Positions 44,557 to 49,539 of a DNA stretch of 64,000 nucleotides are shown one piece after another. Below the pieces are notes generated by a model that was not told the origin of the DNA, made no database searches, and was given only the letters and a program-made list of their open reading frames with translations. Both the position numbers and the translations under genes were made by a program. The stretch covers positions 7,628,749 through 7,692,748 of the forward strand of contig NZ_CP009241.1 in the NCBI RefSeq assembly GCF_000758525.1. The letters are read 5' to 3'. Every line of letters begins with the position of its first letter. Positions within the stretch are counted from its first letter, which is position 1. The DNA is from Paenibacillus sp. FSL H7-0357 (GTDB lineage Bacteria; Bacillota; Bacilli; Paenibacillales; Paenibacillaceae).

Positions 44557-46539
44557 CTATTGTTCCTCATCCGTATGGATGATCGTCACGCCTTCAACAT
44601 GTCTTTTTCGCATCAGCTTGCGCTTTTTACGGGTATCCTTGCTCTCGAAAATAATATCAAAATCATAATCGTCAGGATACAGCTCCTCTTTGGAGAGGTA
44701 GGGTTTCAGGCGTTTATGATTTATTTGCATTTTTTGCTTTTGAATCATGATCCCAACCATTCCCAAGTCATTTCGCTTCTCATACACAATTCCCGTTCTT
44801 CCAAGGGAGCTGACATACACCGCATCCCCTACCTCAAAACTTACGGCCTGCTTCTTGCTGTTTGCTTCCTCCGCAGAGTCAATCTGTTCTCCGCCTTCTT
44901 GTGTCCGCTCTTTGTCCTCTTCATTCGATTCAACGGACACTCTCACTCCGTCAGTCTTGTGCCCTGTGTGCCCGGCATTAGGGCTGCTCCAGACCACTCT
45001 CCCGCCCTGTTGTTCCCGCTGCTGGGCTACAAGCTGCTGCGAGCGCTGAATGACATTGCCCGGGATACCCAGCTTCTCAGCGATTTGCAGCGCATAGCTT
45101 TCACCCGCTTCGCCAATGGTCAGCTTATAGAGCGGCCGGAGTGTCTCTTTATCGAACTCCATCCGCGCATTCTGGAATCCCCGGGTTGAAGCAGCAAACA
45201 CTTTTAGCTCATTAAAATGAGTAGTGACAATGATATTCGCCCCTTTGCGGTTCAGTTCCTCAAGAATAGCTATCGAGAGAGCAAAACCTTCACCGGGATC
45301 TGTCCCTGCCGCCAGCTCATCAATCAGCAGCAGTACCCCTTTGCCGGCATCCTGCAGCATTCCCTCAATGCTCTTCATCTGGGCAGAAAAAGTGCTCAGC
45401 GACTGCGTCAGGCTCTGTCCGTCTCCAATAACACTGATTACATCGCTGAACACAGTAAAGTCACAGCCCTCCTCTACAGGAACCAGCATTCCGGAATGCA
45501 CCATTAAGGTCAGTAGGCCCAGCGTTTTGAGCACAACTGTTTTCCCGCCAGTATTGGGGCCTGTTACAATCAAAGACTTATAGCCCTTGCCAAACTCCAG
45601 GCTGACCGGCACCATATTCCTTAGCTTCGGATGCCTGCCGCCGTTCATCCTCAAGTAACCACGATCATTCAAAGCCACTCTCCTCGCCCCAAGTGTGCGG
45701 GCGTACTTAGCTTTGGCAAAGATGAAATCATACGTGCCGGTCACATCGATATTGACCCGCAAGGCTTCCTGCTCCTGTTCCACCATGCCGCTGAGCATGC
45801 TTAGAATCATTCCCTCTTCCCGTGCCTCGTCAGCAGCCAGCAGCTCCAGCTCTCCCTGTAGGGCGGCTATATCATAAGGCTCGACGAAGACGGTCTGTCC
45901 GCTGGTGGATTGATCCAGCACTGAGCCTTTCACCTGCTTGTGATATTCGCGTTTTACAGGAATAACATAACGCCCGCCGCGCATGCTGACCAGATTCTCC
46001 TGGAGGATAGACTGGTGCTTGGACATAATGCTCTCCAGCTTCCTGTTCAGCCGCTCTTTAGCCACTGCCAAACGCTTGCGCACTCTCTCCAGCCCTTTAC
46101 TCGCCTGGTCTTCTATGACCCCAAACCGGATACAGCGTTCAATTTCCTCTCTGACATGCCTCAATTCCTGCAGAGAAGCTCCGTAGGCGGCGATCCGCGG
46201 CGCACTTTGCTCCTTAGAGGCCATATACTTGCGCAGCTGACTGCAGCTGTTCAGAAAGGTGCATACCGACATAAGATCCTGCTCGTTATACATATATCCG
46301 GTACCCAGCAGTGACATGATCGACTCGATTCCCTCCAGAGAAGGCAACGGAACACTTGCCCCTCTTCCCAGCAGCTCATAGGCTTCATCCGTTTCATCCA
46401 ATGCCCGGTGGATTGCCGGCAGGTAAGTCATCGGTGCCAGCTCATTTACATATCTTCTTCCTTCATAGGATACTGCATGCCGTGCCAAATCCTGTTTGAT
46501 CTCTTCGTATTCAAGGGTATTCAAACTTTGCAGATTCAA
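44557..46539 (-). CDS. MutS2-like ATPase lacking the Smr nuclease domain
   Basis: The 660-residue protein follows the MutS2 plan: an N-terminal opening (LNTLEYEEIKQDLARHA), lever and clamp helices, then the ATPase with Walker A (VTGPNTGGKTVVLKTLG), TFSAQMKSIEG, Walker B (VLLLIDELAAGTDPGEG) and TTHFNELK. After a coiled region a KOW-like segment appears (FEVGDAVYVSSLGRTGIVYE). MutS2 proteins run to about 780-790 residues and end in a Smr domain with LDLRG; here the chain stops after a basic KKRKLMRKRH stretch with no Smr. MutS2 in B. subtilis acts on collided ribosomes. The start is a TTG after GAGGAGGAG. A leader with a small ORF and two terminators precedes it, suggesting inducible expression. 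Confidence 0.88.
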   Translation of the reverse strand: MNLQSLNTLEYEEIKQDLARHAVSYEGRRYVNELAPMTYLPAIHRALDETDEAYELLGRGASVPLPSLEGIESIMSLLGTGYMYNEQDLMSVCTFLNSCSQLRKYMASKEQSAPRIAAYGASLQELRHVREEIERCIRFGVIEDQASKGLERVRKRLAVAKERLNRKLESIMSKHQSILQENLVSMRGGRYVIPVKREYHKQVKGSVLDQSTSGQTVFVEPYDIAALQGELELLAADEAREEGMILSMLSGMVEQEQEALRVNIDVTGTYDFIFAKAKYARTLGARRVALNDRGYLRMNGGRHPKLRNMVPVSLEFGKGYKSLIVTGPNTGGKTVVLKTLGLLTLMVHSGMLVPVEEGCDFTVFSDVISVIGDGQSLTQSLSTFSAQMKSIEGMLQDAGKGVLLLIDELAAGTDPGEGFALSIAILEELNRKGANIIVTTHFNELKVFAASTRGFQNARMEFDKETLRPLYKLTIGEAGESYALQIAEKLGIPGNVIQRSQQLVAQQREQQGGRVVWSSPNAGHTGHKTDGVRVSVESNEEDKERTQEGGEQIDSAEEANSKKQAVSFEVGDAVYVSSLGRTGIVYEKRNDLGMVGIMIQKQKMQINHKRLKPYLSKEELYPDDYDFDIIFESKDTRKKRKLMRKRHVEGVTIIHTDEEQ

Positions 46540-46594
46540 TGTTTCTCCTCCTCTATTGTCGACCTGAATGTATCAGGCGTGATTGTTCCTAACG

Positions 46595-46634
46595 CAAAAA
46601 AGGGCAAAGACTGCCACTACGGCAGTCCTTGCCC
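46595..46634 (-). terminator. Second intrinsic terminator ahead of the mutS2-like gene
   Basis: On the minus strand GGGCAAGGACTGCC and GGCAGTCTTTGCCC form a 14-bp stem (with G-U pairs) around GTAGT, then TTTTTT. It lies 63 bases before the TTG start, so it would stop all read-through unless bypassed. Confidence 0.88.
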
Positions 46635-46662
46635 TCATTTATATGGTGTTGTCTCTGAAAAC

Positions 46663-46691
46663 AGAAAAAACCGTGCTGCAAGAGCACGGTT
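46663..46691 (-). terminator. First intrinsic terminator of the leader RNA
   Basis: On the minus strand AACCGTGCT and AGCACGGTT pair around CTTGC, followed by TTTTTT. It ends the structured leader region. Confidence 0.88.
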
Positions 46692-46864
46692 AATTACAAA
46701 GAGAACAACAGCCGTAAAGAGGCCATCGTGACGCTTCGTGTGTTCTTAACTAAATCATTCACCTTCAACAACCAGAGCATGTCGCGGGACAGACTCAAAC
46801 AGAGCACACGTATCGCCTAATCCGATACCTGGCGCAGCTAATTGTTCAGGTAATATGAAATTGC

Positions 46865-46888
46865 TTAGTTAAGAACGCTCACCAACAT
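46865..46888 (-). CDS. Putative seven-codon leader peptide (MLVSVLN)
   Basis: ATG TTG GTG AGC GTT CTT AAC TAA, with AAGGGG 8 bases upstream. Its last four codons, stop included, are exactly the proximal arm of the 12-bp inverted repeat. A ribosome paused here would cover that arm. No homologue is known to me; the evidence is the binding site and the geometry. Confidence 0.5.
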   Translation of the reverse strand: MLVSVLN

Positions 46889-46919
46889 CAAAATTTCCCC
46901 TTTAGTTTAGGATAACTGT

Positions 46920-46948
46920 AATTTACTACATTCTGTGACATCCGTCAA
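46920..46948 (-). promoter_or_regulatory. Promoter of the leader RNA and mutS2-like gene
   Basis: On the minus strand TTGACG (46948-46943), 17 bases, TAAATT (46925-46920). It overlaps the stop codon of the VOC gene. Confidence 0.68.
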
Positions 46949-47319
46949 TTGGCAACAAAACAGTTCAATACCCAACTAATTCTATTCTTACTATCTGCAA
47001 CTTGTCCATGAAGAGCGCCGAAGAAAGTCTTTTGCAGCTCAACCAGGACTTGACCGCCATCAGCAATCAGTTTGTCATAAATGCCGCGCAGCTGTTCCTC
47101 ACTGTCCAGCCCCATAATAATGCTGACATTTTCCGTCTTGGCGCCTTTCCCGTAATCATCGGAGAAATGGATCAGACTCTGGCCCAGATGCAGCTCTGCA
47201 TGCAGCCATTTGCCTTTATGCTCATTCAAAATCTTAATTTCCCCGCCAAACACGCTCTGATAATATTCTACCGATTCCTGTACATTCTCAATGACTACAA
47301 AGGGGCTTGCACTGACCAT
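46945..47319 (-). CDS. VOC superfamily (PhnB/glyoxalase-like) protein
   Basis: A protein of about 124 residues with the paired beta-alpha-beta-beta-beta modules of the vicinal oxygen chelate fold: PFVVIENVQESVEYYQSVFGGEIKIL, LHAELHLGQSLIHFSDD, and FFGALHGQVADSKNRISWVLNC at the end. It is closest in pattern to PhnB-like proteins, which resemble antibiotic-binding or dioxygenase members. The substrate is unknown. The third of three tandem ATG codons is best spaced (7 bases) from GGAGG; a frame extending 48 bases upstream is less likely. Confidence 0.85.
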   Translation of the reverse strand: MVSASPFVVIENVQESVEYYQSVFGGEIKILNEHKGKWLHAELHLGQSLIHFSDDYGKGAKTENVSIIMGLDSEEQLRGIYDKLIADGGQVLVELQKTFFGALHGQVADSKNRISWVLNCFVAN

Positions 47320-47511
47320 CATCATGCCTCCAAGAATTAAATTATGCGGCTGTTTAGCTTCCGTCATTTCTTAATCATTATATACAATTAAGTATTTATG
47401 ACCAAGCGAGCATACTTTGACCGCAGCCGTCCTGCTATCATTTGGTTTTATCCGTCTTTCTTCTATTTAGCTGAGGCCAGTTAATGCGGGAGGGGGTCGT
47501 TTAGGAGCAAA

Positions 47512-47553: not shown

Positions 47554-47826
47554 CTATTCCGTTGTGTAAGGCAGCAGCGCGATTTGACGCGAGCGTTTTA
47601 CAGCAATGGTCAGAGCGCGTTGGTATTTTGCACTTGTACCTGTTACACGACGCGGCAAAATCTTTCCGCGTTCGCTGATGAACTTCTTAAGAAGCTCAGT
47701 GTCTTTATAATCAATGTGAGTAATTTTGTTCACAGTGAAGTAGCACACTTTTTTGCGCTTGTTGCGTCCACCACGACGTGCCGGTCTTTTGTCGTTGTCT
47801 CCGCCTTCTCTTTGTTTGAAAGCCAT
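47554..47826 (-). CDS. rpsR: 30S ribosomal protein S18
   Basis: A 90-residue basic protein with [62 protein letters not shown] features in order, as S18 always shows. The N-terminal extension ([19 protein letters not shown]) is longer than in E. coli. It binds S6 on the platform of the small subunit. Third gene of rpsF-ssb-rpsR. Confidence 0.98.
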
Positions 47827-47847
47827 GTTCAGTTCAGTCCTTCCTTA

Positions 47848-48354
47848 TTAAAATGGCAAATCATCGTCCGATATATCGATCGGTTTTCCATCGCCCGAAA
47901 AAGGATCTTGATTATTGTTGTTGTTACGCGTGAAATTATTGCTATTTCCGCGTCCACTGTTACCGCCGCCACCGCCATAGGCTGGTTCTTCAGGAGTACC
48001 TGCACCACTTGGTGTATTTCCGCCTTCACGGTTCTGCGAAGATTCCAGGAAACGGACATTATCGGCAATGACTTCGGTTACGTATACACGTTTACCTTCG
48101 TTATTCTCGTAATTCCGTACTTGGATGCGTCCTTCCACGGCTGCCAGTCGTCCTTTGCGCAAGTAATTGGCACAGGTCTCAGCCAGCTGTCTCCAGGTTA
48201 CTACCGGGATGAAGTCCGCCTCGCGTTCACCGTTCTGGCCCGTAAAGTTGCGGTCTACAGCAAGTGTAAACTGCGTTACGGCAACACCAGCGGGAGTATA
48301 ACGAAGTTCCGGGTCACGGGTCAACCGACCGATCAGAATGATACGGTTCAACAA
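47848..48354 (-). CDS. ssb: Single-stranded DNA-binding protein
   Basis: A 168-residue SSB: OB fold in residues 1-105 (LNRIILIGRLTRDPELRYTPAG, ADFIPVVTWRQLAETCANYL), then a Gly/Asn-rich flexible tail ending in the acidic IDISDDDLPF tip that recruits partner proteins. The start is TTG (read as MLNRI) after GGAGGGG; a longer frame upstream is not supported. It lies in the ribosomal S6-S18 operon, as in all Bacilli. Confidence 0.98.
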   Translation of the reverse strand: MLNRIILIGRLTRDPELRYTPAGVAVTQFTLAVDRNFTGQNGEREADFIPVVTWRQLAETCANYLRKGRLAAVEGRIQVRNYENNEGKRVYVTEVIADNVRFLESSQNREGGNTPSGAGTPEEPAYGGGGGNSGRGNSNNFTRNNNNNQDPFSGDGKPIDISDDDLPF

Positions 48355-48401
48355 TTCAATCCCCTCCTTTAACGCGATCAATTACAAAGCTTGTCAACAT
48401 C

Positions 48402-48686
48402 TTAGGCAACGTCGTTCGTAATGAGATAACGAATTACTTCGTCGGAAATCTTCATGAGACGTTCCAATTCGGTAACTACTGCAGGTTCTGCATTGAAGTT
48501 AACCAAAACATAAACGCCATCACGGAATTTCTTGATCTCATACGCAAGACGGCGTTTACCTTGCACATCGTGCTTTGTAATTTCTCCGCCGTTGGAGATG
48601 ATGCCTTGGAATTTTTCGACTGCTGCTTGAACGGCTTCTTGTTCAATGTCAGGACGAATAATGTACATGACTTCATATTTGCGCAT
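48402..48686 (-). CDS. rpsF: 30S ribosomal protein S6
   Basis: The 94-residue protein opens MRKYEVMYIIRPDIEQEAV and has LAYEIKKFRDGVYVLVNFNAEPA, the standard S6 body, without a Glu tail. The start at 48686 has AAGGAGG 8 bases upstream. First gene of the operon, preceded by a candidate S6:S18 autoregulatory hairpin. Confidence 0.98.
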   Translation of the reverse strand: MRKYEVMYIIRPDIEQEAVQAAVEKFQGIISNGGEITKHDVQGKRRLAYEIKKFRDGVYVLVNFNAEPAVVTELERLMKISDEVIRYLITNDVA

Positions 48687-48709
48687 AATTTTCACCTCCT
48701 TATGGTCTG

Positions 48710-49448: not shown

Positions 49449-49539
49449 TGGCGGAGAGGGTGGGATTCGAACCCACGCACGCTGTGACACGCCTAACTGA
49501 TTTCGAGTCAGCCCCCTTGGGCCTCTTGGGTACCTCTCC
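49449..49539 (-). tRNA. tRNA-Ser (anticodon CGA)
   Basis: The acceptor stem is GGAGAGG/CCTCTCC with discriminator G and an encoded CCA. The anticodon loop is CTCGAAA, so the anticodon is CGA, reading UCG. A long variable arm (TTAGGCGTGTCACAGCGTGC region), typical of class II serine tRNA, precedes the T arm with GGTTCGAATCC. Confidence 0.95.

Follow-up and report, generated by a model that had tools for sequence, protein, structure and literature searches.

A portable leader with the features of a ribosome-mediated attenuator precedes a Smr-less MutS2 paralogue and candidate translation-defence genes in Paenibacillus and other Firmicutes

What controls the MutS2-like ATPase gene in the terminal part of the Paenibacillus sp. 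FSL H7-0357 genome, and to which signal would it respond? The window, a 64,000-nt stretch of contig NZ_CP009241.1 (positions 7,628,749 to 7,692,748), closes a single-contig genome of 7.69 Mb and carries the gene on its minus strand. A first-pass annotation had placed ahead of it a promoter, a Shine-Dalgarno sequence, a seven-codon open reading frame (ORF) reading MLVSVLN, a perfect 12-bp inverted repeat and two intrinsic terminators (T1 and T2), all of which sequence inspection and scanning recovered in the same places (Table 1). The end of the ORF constitutes the 5' arm of the repeat, and the 3' arm lies between the ORF and T1. We find that this leader is very probably a ribosome-mediated transcription attenuator, and regard as likely, for the locus as a whole, that it governs translation-inhibitor-induced defence genes, the ATPase included.

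The reality of the leader elements is settled by their conservation among relatives. In a scan of this one stretch, terminator-like sites number 6 against 0.5 expected by chance (both strands) and promoter-like sites 1 against 1.0, so the promoter alone says little. A search with the window protein across 100 genomes of the same genus, its own included, led to 97 paralogue loci, a few of them partial matches; in the three genomes outside this set (G025, G034 and G061), the best matches (expect value, E, 1.7e-103, 7.4e-109 and 1.4e-108, respectively) are at the level of true MutS2. In 96 of the 97 upstream regions, there is an upstream ORF (uORF) that reads MxxxVLN-stop and hardly varies over its final 12 nt; in the remaining one (L045), a run of N covers the uORF, and the 3' arm and T1 are kept. 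The downstream arm accompanies all 96 uORFs, and a simple scan detects a terminator in all but L095. G061 retains a leader (L171) ahead of a paralogue in broken pieces, G034 an orphan leader (L146) that reads VFN in place of VLN and has no paralogue behind it, and G025 gave no match in the leader-pattern or covariance-model searches. By eye, the genes next to the orphan leader resemble an rRNA methyltransferase and a pseudouridine synthase.

Across 199 leaders, gathered by matches centred on the leader-ORF stretch so that the counts are partly selected, the peptide reads V5 in 198, L6 in 198 and N7 in 196, with codons 2-4 variable. The 3' arm and T1 hairpin were both placed in all but 6 of the 199, giving 144 distinct pairs, and a second strong hairpin with a U run follows T1 in 133 of these. 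The uORF and its Shine-Dalgarno sequence hold a fixed position across 74 aligned diverse leaders, and the ORF appears translatable. A -35-like TTGAC or TTGCC occurs in 162 of 186 distinct upstream sequences (157 of these 58-64 nt before the uORF start), compared with 7 of 186 after shuffling.

The leader ORF overlaps one arm of a 12-pair anti-antiterminator helix that shows covariation. Both the ORF and compensatory arm changes are conserved, contrary to one of the refuting outcomes named in the first-pass annotation. In the window, a 111-nt loop including a small hairpin separates the two arms. Among the 74 diverse leaders, 96.7% of helix cells are paired, compared with 94.5% after shuffling and 24-54% when slid. 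Two-sided cells number 14 against a shuffled mean of 2.5, with 0 of 500 shuffles as high, and the covariation score of 0.083 (shuffled, 0.042) is likewise reached by none. These cells are mostly A-U to C-G or G-C changes within the stop codon, and RNAalifold recovers 10 of the 12 pairs. Beyond the training set of the covariance model, which comprises the same 74 leaders, paired changes occur elsewhere in the helix (U-A to G-C in L392; C-G to U-A in L393; C-G to A-U in L388, L389 and L391). Many pairs are near-invariant, which would suit a 3' arm with two duties. Outside the order, the longest leader-to-downstream helix was compared with 100 shuffles per leader, and shuffles equal it in 0-3 of 100 for L388, L389, L391, L392 and L393.

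The second duty predicted for the 3' arm is antitermination. Folding was applied to RNA spanning the 3' arm to the T1 loop, the state before the terminator is complete, in the 144 distinct leaders, which are relatives and non-independent. Upstream pairing of the T1 5' half averages 0.62 with the arm free, 0.33 with the arm removed and 0.49 with the arm shuffled. The free arm exceeds its removal by more than 0.05 in 127 leaders and is lower in 2; the real arm exceeds the shuffled one in 99 and is lower in 8; in 61, it outdoes 95% or more of 20 shuffles. For the window leader, the three probabilities are 0.56 (free), 0.00 (removed) and 0.32 (shuffled), and 10% of 20 shuffles attain the free-arm value. 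Antiterminator and intrinsic terminator are predicted by these folds to be mutually exclusive. Where T1 starts with ATCCG, CGGA follows the arm in 27 of 30 distinct leaders, compared with 18 of 45 for other T1 starts, an association confounded with descent. As proof of the antiterminator, the bare duplex between 3' arm and T1 was set aside: its mean of -8.2 kcal/mol against -7.3 kcal/mol for shuffled arms (p <=0.05 in 13 and >0.5 in 41 of 144 leaders) is a modest gain, and ensemble folding with controls was therefore relied on instead. The first-pass annotation had proposed AGAACA with TGTTCT as the competing pairing; it holds in the window and near relatives and is not conserved family-wide, and it was rejected as the alternative fold. 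The 3' arm together with the 5' half and loop of T1 is the better-supported antiterminator. A TTNTTT motif, the NusG pause motif of vmlR and msrD (PMC9226507, PMC10314930), occupies the same aligned place in 39 of the 74 diverse leaders, against 4.1 expected by shuffling.

The leader extends well beyond the genus. Allowing up to 3 mismatches, a 35-nt pattern was found in 244 of the 394 genomes of the family, covering 13 of 19 genera, its reversed control giving 0 among the matches listed. The covariance model (E <=0.01) detected the leader in 307 of the 392 genomes of the order (33 of 49 genera), many of its training leaders coming from these 392 genomes themselves, and in 17 of 398 genomes of a phylum sample, 6 of the 17 within the order. 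The exact arm-gap-arm pattern, which requires the arms and so selects for their conservation, leaving Shine-Dalgarno sequence, start codon and terminators unselected, occurs in at least 119 stretches of named genomes. Genera among the matches listed include Brevibacillus, Aneurinibacillus, Cohnella, Fontibacillus, Rossellomorea, Fictibacillus, Robertmurraya, Shimazuella, Pseudalkalibacillus, Petroclostridium and a Clostridium. Since the two arms are reverse complements of each other, M/L-I-S-x-V-L-N-stop can also be read from the opposite strand at L303 and L300; weak antisense covariance-model matches occur as well. Both arms at their spacing occupy a single place in the window genome, and a covariance-model search for further copies there left only matches with E >1.

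The genes behind the leader belong to a few recurring families. Among the 86 pattern-found loci L101-L186 (eight places present twice), 82 match two downstream families, comprising 62 MutS2-like ATPase and 20 BpsA-like genes; the remaining four are an ATPase gene (L112), a GNAT gene (L136), the orphan L146 and a contig end (L180). The best 30 covariance-model loci of the order search precede 29 ATPase genes and 1 BpsA-like gene, and 40 second- or weak-copy loci precede 18 ATPase, 10 BpsA-like, 6 GNAT, 3 APH-like and 1 other GNAT gene, with 2 unmatched. The 119 arm-gap-arm matches listed (both strands) divide into 88 ATPase, 21 BpsA-like, 1 APH-like, 1 GNAT and 8 unmatched, seven of the last lying within ~360 nt of the locus edge. 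Scanning one protein per additional family gave 69.9 bits for GNAT, 49.6 bits for the other GNAT and 22.5 bits for the APH-like protein, slightly below its threshold of 23.2. The single BpsA-like protein scanned matches PF01861 (BpsA_C) at 147.5 bits (threshold 27), and NCBIfam has no named family for it. At L249 (G485), a GNAT gene lies ~2 kb from the leader with other sequence, possibly an insertion, between them.

Outside the order, all 11 matches in the phylum sample shortly precede an ATPase (4), an ABC exporter (4, each with a second exporter gene behind) or an ABC-F gene (3). The model scores of the ABC-F leaders are weak, but spurious matches would not be expected to lie directly ahead of such genes. 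The three ABC-F proteins score 501.6, 463.1 and 447.9 bits against the NCBIfam NF000355 ribosome-protection cut-off of 380, by which they appear to be ribosome-protection proteins. For two of them, the best solved structure is 8buu, with 6ha8 second and third; we take these to show VmlR2 and VmlR, respectively. The exporter scanned (L399) has an MsbA-type resemblance and passes no curated cut-off among those listed. Entry 8buu was deposited with a study of VmlR2, Ard1 and CplR (PMC10201436). The leader is portable, related leaders recurring before several unrelated genes, and its inducers are probably translation inhibitors. The response to such inhibitors suggested in the first-pass annotation is supported by association, the leader standing before ABC-F, exporter and acetyltransferase genes.

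Two other explanations meet this gene content. A stand-alone small RNA with an incidental uORF is very improbable. A terminated leader RNA of ~250 nt would indeed accumulate, but a gene of few recurring families follows nearly all classified loci and the uORF and its Shine-Dalgarno sequence are kept at a fixed place; moreover, Rfam release 15 contains no family at gathering score for the leader, neither 6S RNA, with which the first-pass annotation had asked for comparison, nor any other, the strongest sub-threshold match being an Hfq-regulated sRNA (24.4 bits, threshold 52). Alternatively, the same attenuator could respond to general ribosome slowing or collision (cold, starvation, damage) with no specific antibiotic class as signal. 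MutS2 acts on collided ribosomes (PMC10897456), and the variation at positions 2-4, together with replacement of the peptide in some leaders, makes drug-specific nascent-peptide sensing unnecessary; genes of the ABC-F, exporter, acetyltransferase and APH-like kinds behind the leader nevertheless fit drug defence better, and we consider a general signal unlikely.

Comparison of leader peptides revealed that the RNA arm outlasts the peptide it encodes. Some leaders carry an extra codon before the stop (VLNS, VLNF), exporter leaders read MIKGVLK, and one ABC-F leader reads MFIRS. The GNAT leaders of another family encode LFLTK or LILTK from a shifted start, with GTTCTTAAC or a near form kept. Since peptide or frame changes while the arm persists, the arm is the more constant feature. 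SpeFL and the eukaryotic MAGDIS uORF are models for a polyamine-sensing arrest peptide, and a metabolite sensor of this type would suit the BpsA-like family and its BpsA_C match, as well as the near-invariant VLN-stop of the partly selected 199 leaders. The arm, however, stays or is little changed under VLNS, VLNF, VLI, LFLTK, MIKGVLK and MFIRS peptides, most genes behind the leader are unrelated to polyamines, and a search of the window genome gave no BpsA match, an empty result that carries little weight; polyamine sensing is accordingly improbable. Attenuation by amino-acid starvation, sensed at the Val, Leu or Asn codons, could draw on the same near-invariance of these codons, but frame-shifted variants lose them and none of the classified loci has a gene for amino-acid biosynthesis immediately after the leader, leaving this explanation with an extremely small probability.

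By its domain content, the window gene encodes a MutS2 paralogue that has no Smr domain, ends in a tail of its own and is distinct from MutS2 itself. Its product matches NCBIfam mutS2 at 590.8 bits over residues 4-510, with Pfam reporting MutS_V only, and possesses the MutS lever/clamp core, the ATPase and the Walker motifs. A comparison with the PDB, covering mainly residues 1-513, places the MutS2 chains 9a5o_B and 7qv3_w closest. Pfam gives no Smr match in the window protein or its relative L312, whereas the true MutS2 of the same genome carries Smr at 90.1 bits. That protein (a 789-codon frame) is the one true MutS2 of the genome and shares 39% identity with the window protein across the aligned region; one further, more distant MutS-type match is present. 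The first-pass description is corrected in this respect, the gene being a Smr-less paralogue and the true MutS2 lying elsewhere. In the KOW/SH3 region, a five-stranded barrel is predicted at 573-613, and one weak match aligns with MutS2 630-682; Pfam MSSS is unreported for the window protein and L312, and profile comparison aligns the first ~500 residues only. The family tail has the consensus ELYPEDYDxDIIFESKENRKKRKLMxRKHVEGL (alignment of 18) and is present in 17 of the 19 relatives inspected at this end; L153 and L280 stop short of it. The frame at 44557-46539 also displays a sub-threshold similarity to the reactivase ATPase KamC (206.5 bits, cut-off 300).

Several results weigh against attenuation as described here or against parts of it. 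Two of the five covariation measures do not stand out clearly from shuffles: three helix pairs show two-sided change, which 16 of 500 shuffles match, and the count of further pair types is unremarkable (reached by 154 of 500). The covariation statistics include kinship, related leaders being non-independent. In the longest-helix test, the real helix is equalled by 6, 20, 23, 29 and 50 of 100 shuffles for L394, L387, L395, L386 and L385, respectively, and L386 is without the usual arm pairing. The ABC-F leaders match the covariance model weakly (E 0.003-0.0055). L083 and L312, among six leaders shown singly, gain nothing over a shuffled arm, and the window arm-T1 contact as a bare duplex is no better than shuffles. 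The window carries a degenerate form of TTNTTT in place of the exact motif, T2 is conserved with no evident antiterminator of its own, and a ribosome at the start codon alone would cover ~4 bases of the 12-bp arm. Architecture, conservation, covariation, predicted mutual exclusivity, the shared leader and domain content are all established by computation.

For the attenuator, we infer stalling, read-through, inducer, ATPase action and autoregulation as follows. By default, ribosomes would complete the seven-codon ORF and depart, the ORF end would pair with the 3' arm, T1 would form, and transcription would stop. A translation inhibitor would hold a ribosome on the leader ORF and leave the 3' arm free to join the T1 5' half, allowing RNA polymerase to continue into the gene. 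Like MutS2, the Smr-less ATPase would be expected to target collided ribosomes or ribosomes stalled by antibiotics; that it rescues or splits stalled ribosomes is rather more plausible than not. By analogy with MsrD, it may also remove ribosomes from the leader of its own gene, which would restrict how much of the ATPase is made.

Elements of the locus are collected in Table 1. Smaller helices are nested inside the predicted antiterminator. Upstream, a VOC/glyoxalase-family gene (46945-47367, minus strand) has its stop end overlapping the -35 region of the leader promoter, so upstream read-through could enter the leader. ORFs resembling rpsR, ssb and rpsF by eye (47554-48695, minus strand) and a tRNA-Ser(CGA) gene (49449-49539, minus strand) lie shortly upstream of the leader.

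Table 1. Leader and gene features in the window, with candidate and predicted elements named as such
Feature	Position	Strand	Basis
Promoter TTGACG-17-TAAATT	46948-46920	-	Sequence scan
Shine-Dalgarno AAAGGGG of leader ORF	46903-46897	-	Sequence; aligned across 74 diverse leaders
Leader ORF MLVSVLN-stop, ATGTTGGTGAGCGTTCTTAACTAA	46888-46865	-	Sequence; conservation
5' arm of anti-antiterminator helix, codons V-L-N-stop	46876-46865	-	Perfect 12-bp repeat with 46753-46742
Candidate pause hairpin (46828-46823 / 46815-46810), then CTGTTTGAG	46828-46794	-	Window sequence; aligned leaders
3' arm, partner of 5' arm; would contribute to antiterminator if 5' arm is occupied	46753-46742	-	Covariation, folding
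Predicted antiterminator: TAAGA + CAC (46748-46744, 46742-46740) with GTG + TCTTG (46687-46685, 46683-46679)	46748-46679	-	Folding
T1: AACCGTGCTCTTGCAGCACGGTT + U run	46691-46663 (hairpin 46691-46669)	-	Terminator scan
T2, ~60 nt before gene	46636-46600	-	Terminator scan
Smr-less MutS2 paralogue gene, 660 aa	46539-44557	-	Domain and profile searches

The leader would add an RNA family unmatched by Rfam release 15, and as one conserved element it is usable as a probe, any gene that follows it becoming a candidate translation-defence gene. It nominates the MutS2 subfamily, a BpsA-like enzyme, two acetyltransferase types and an APH-like protein as ribosome-inhibitor-inducible responses, and opens to direct test the question of whether a Smr-less MutS2 splits antibiotic-stalled ribosomes. 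Its distribution suggests that an inducible defence against protein-synthesis-blocking drugs has so far gone uncharted. More tentatively, and at slightly below even odds in our judgement, the portable homologous attenuator may mark an unrecognised Firmicutes-wide anti-ribosome-drug regulon, with the Smr-less MutS2 as a new ribosome-splitting resistance class and the BpsA-like enzyme as a second, chemically new one. Among the papers listed by full-text literature searches, for some of them the top-ranked ones only and with few subscription journals covered, none was seen to describe a leader-controlled MutS2 paralogue or this leader, and the main text of a survey of new RNA motifs (PMC11109978) mentions neither Paenibacillus nor mutS.

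Among known systems, the 273-aa GNAT protein behind the leader at L233 is similar in length to PamZ, the paenilamicin self-resistance acetyltransferase of Paenibacillus larvae (PMC9054821); no sequence relation between the two was found, and the likeness is an analogy. Paenilamicin-type drugs as specific inducer, an idea prompted by the acetyltransferases, were set aside for want of a sequence link to PamZ. B. subtilis MutS2 shares the MutS core and ATPase, and its loss sensitises cells to chloramphenicol, tetracycline and erythromycin; the ATPase is its most important part, and KOW and Smr mutants show no more than modest sensitivity to erythromycin (PMC10897456). It differs in having Smr, which the window paralogue with its own tail lacks, a real difference because Smr/KOW mutations in B. 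subtilis reduce ribosome binding and rescue (PMC10897456). The B. subtilis vmlR leader likewise has a very short uORF inside the anti-antiterminator, an intrinsic terminator, transcription attenuation and a TTNTTT NusG pause, a motif degenerate in the window, and differs in its three-codon MIN uORF, in the translation attenuation also reported and in sequence (PMC9226507). msrDL-msrD combines a short hydrophobic leader peptide, stop codon, TTNTTT and terminator with negative feedback by the product, the counterpart of which is here a proposal; its peptide, MYLIFM, mediates macrolide-specific arrest and is decisive in sequence, as the peptide here apparently is not (PMC10314930). The Listeria hflXr leader (rli80) resembles the present one in its small ORF and alternative folds and, as proposed here, in induction by translation inhibitors and control of a paralogue of a ribosome-splitting factor, there the ribosome-splitting HflXr; it is a different leader, its ORF has 14 codons with an RLR motif, and its product is an HflX homologue rather than a MutS-type ATPase (PMC6310831). 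Compared resistance-gene leaders differ from gene to gene (MIN, MR[I/M], MK[L/Q], MAGN; PMC10201436). The kind of attenuator is known; new here are one homologous leader on many unrelated Firmicutes genes and a MutS2 subfamily so controlled.

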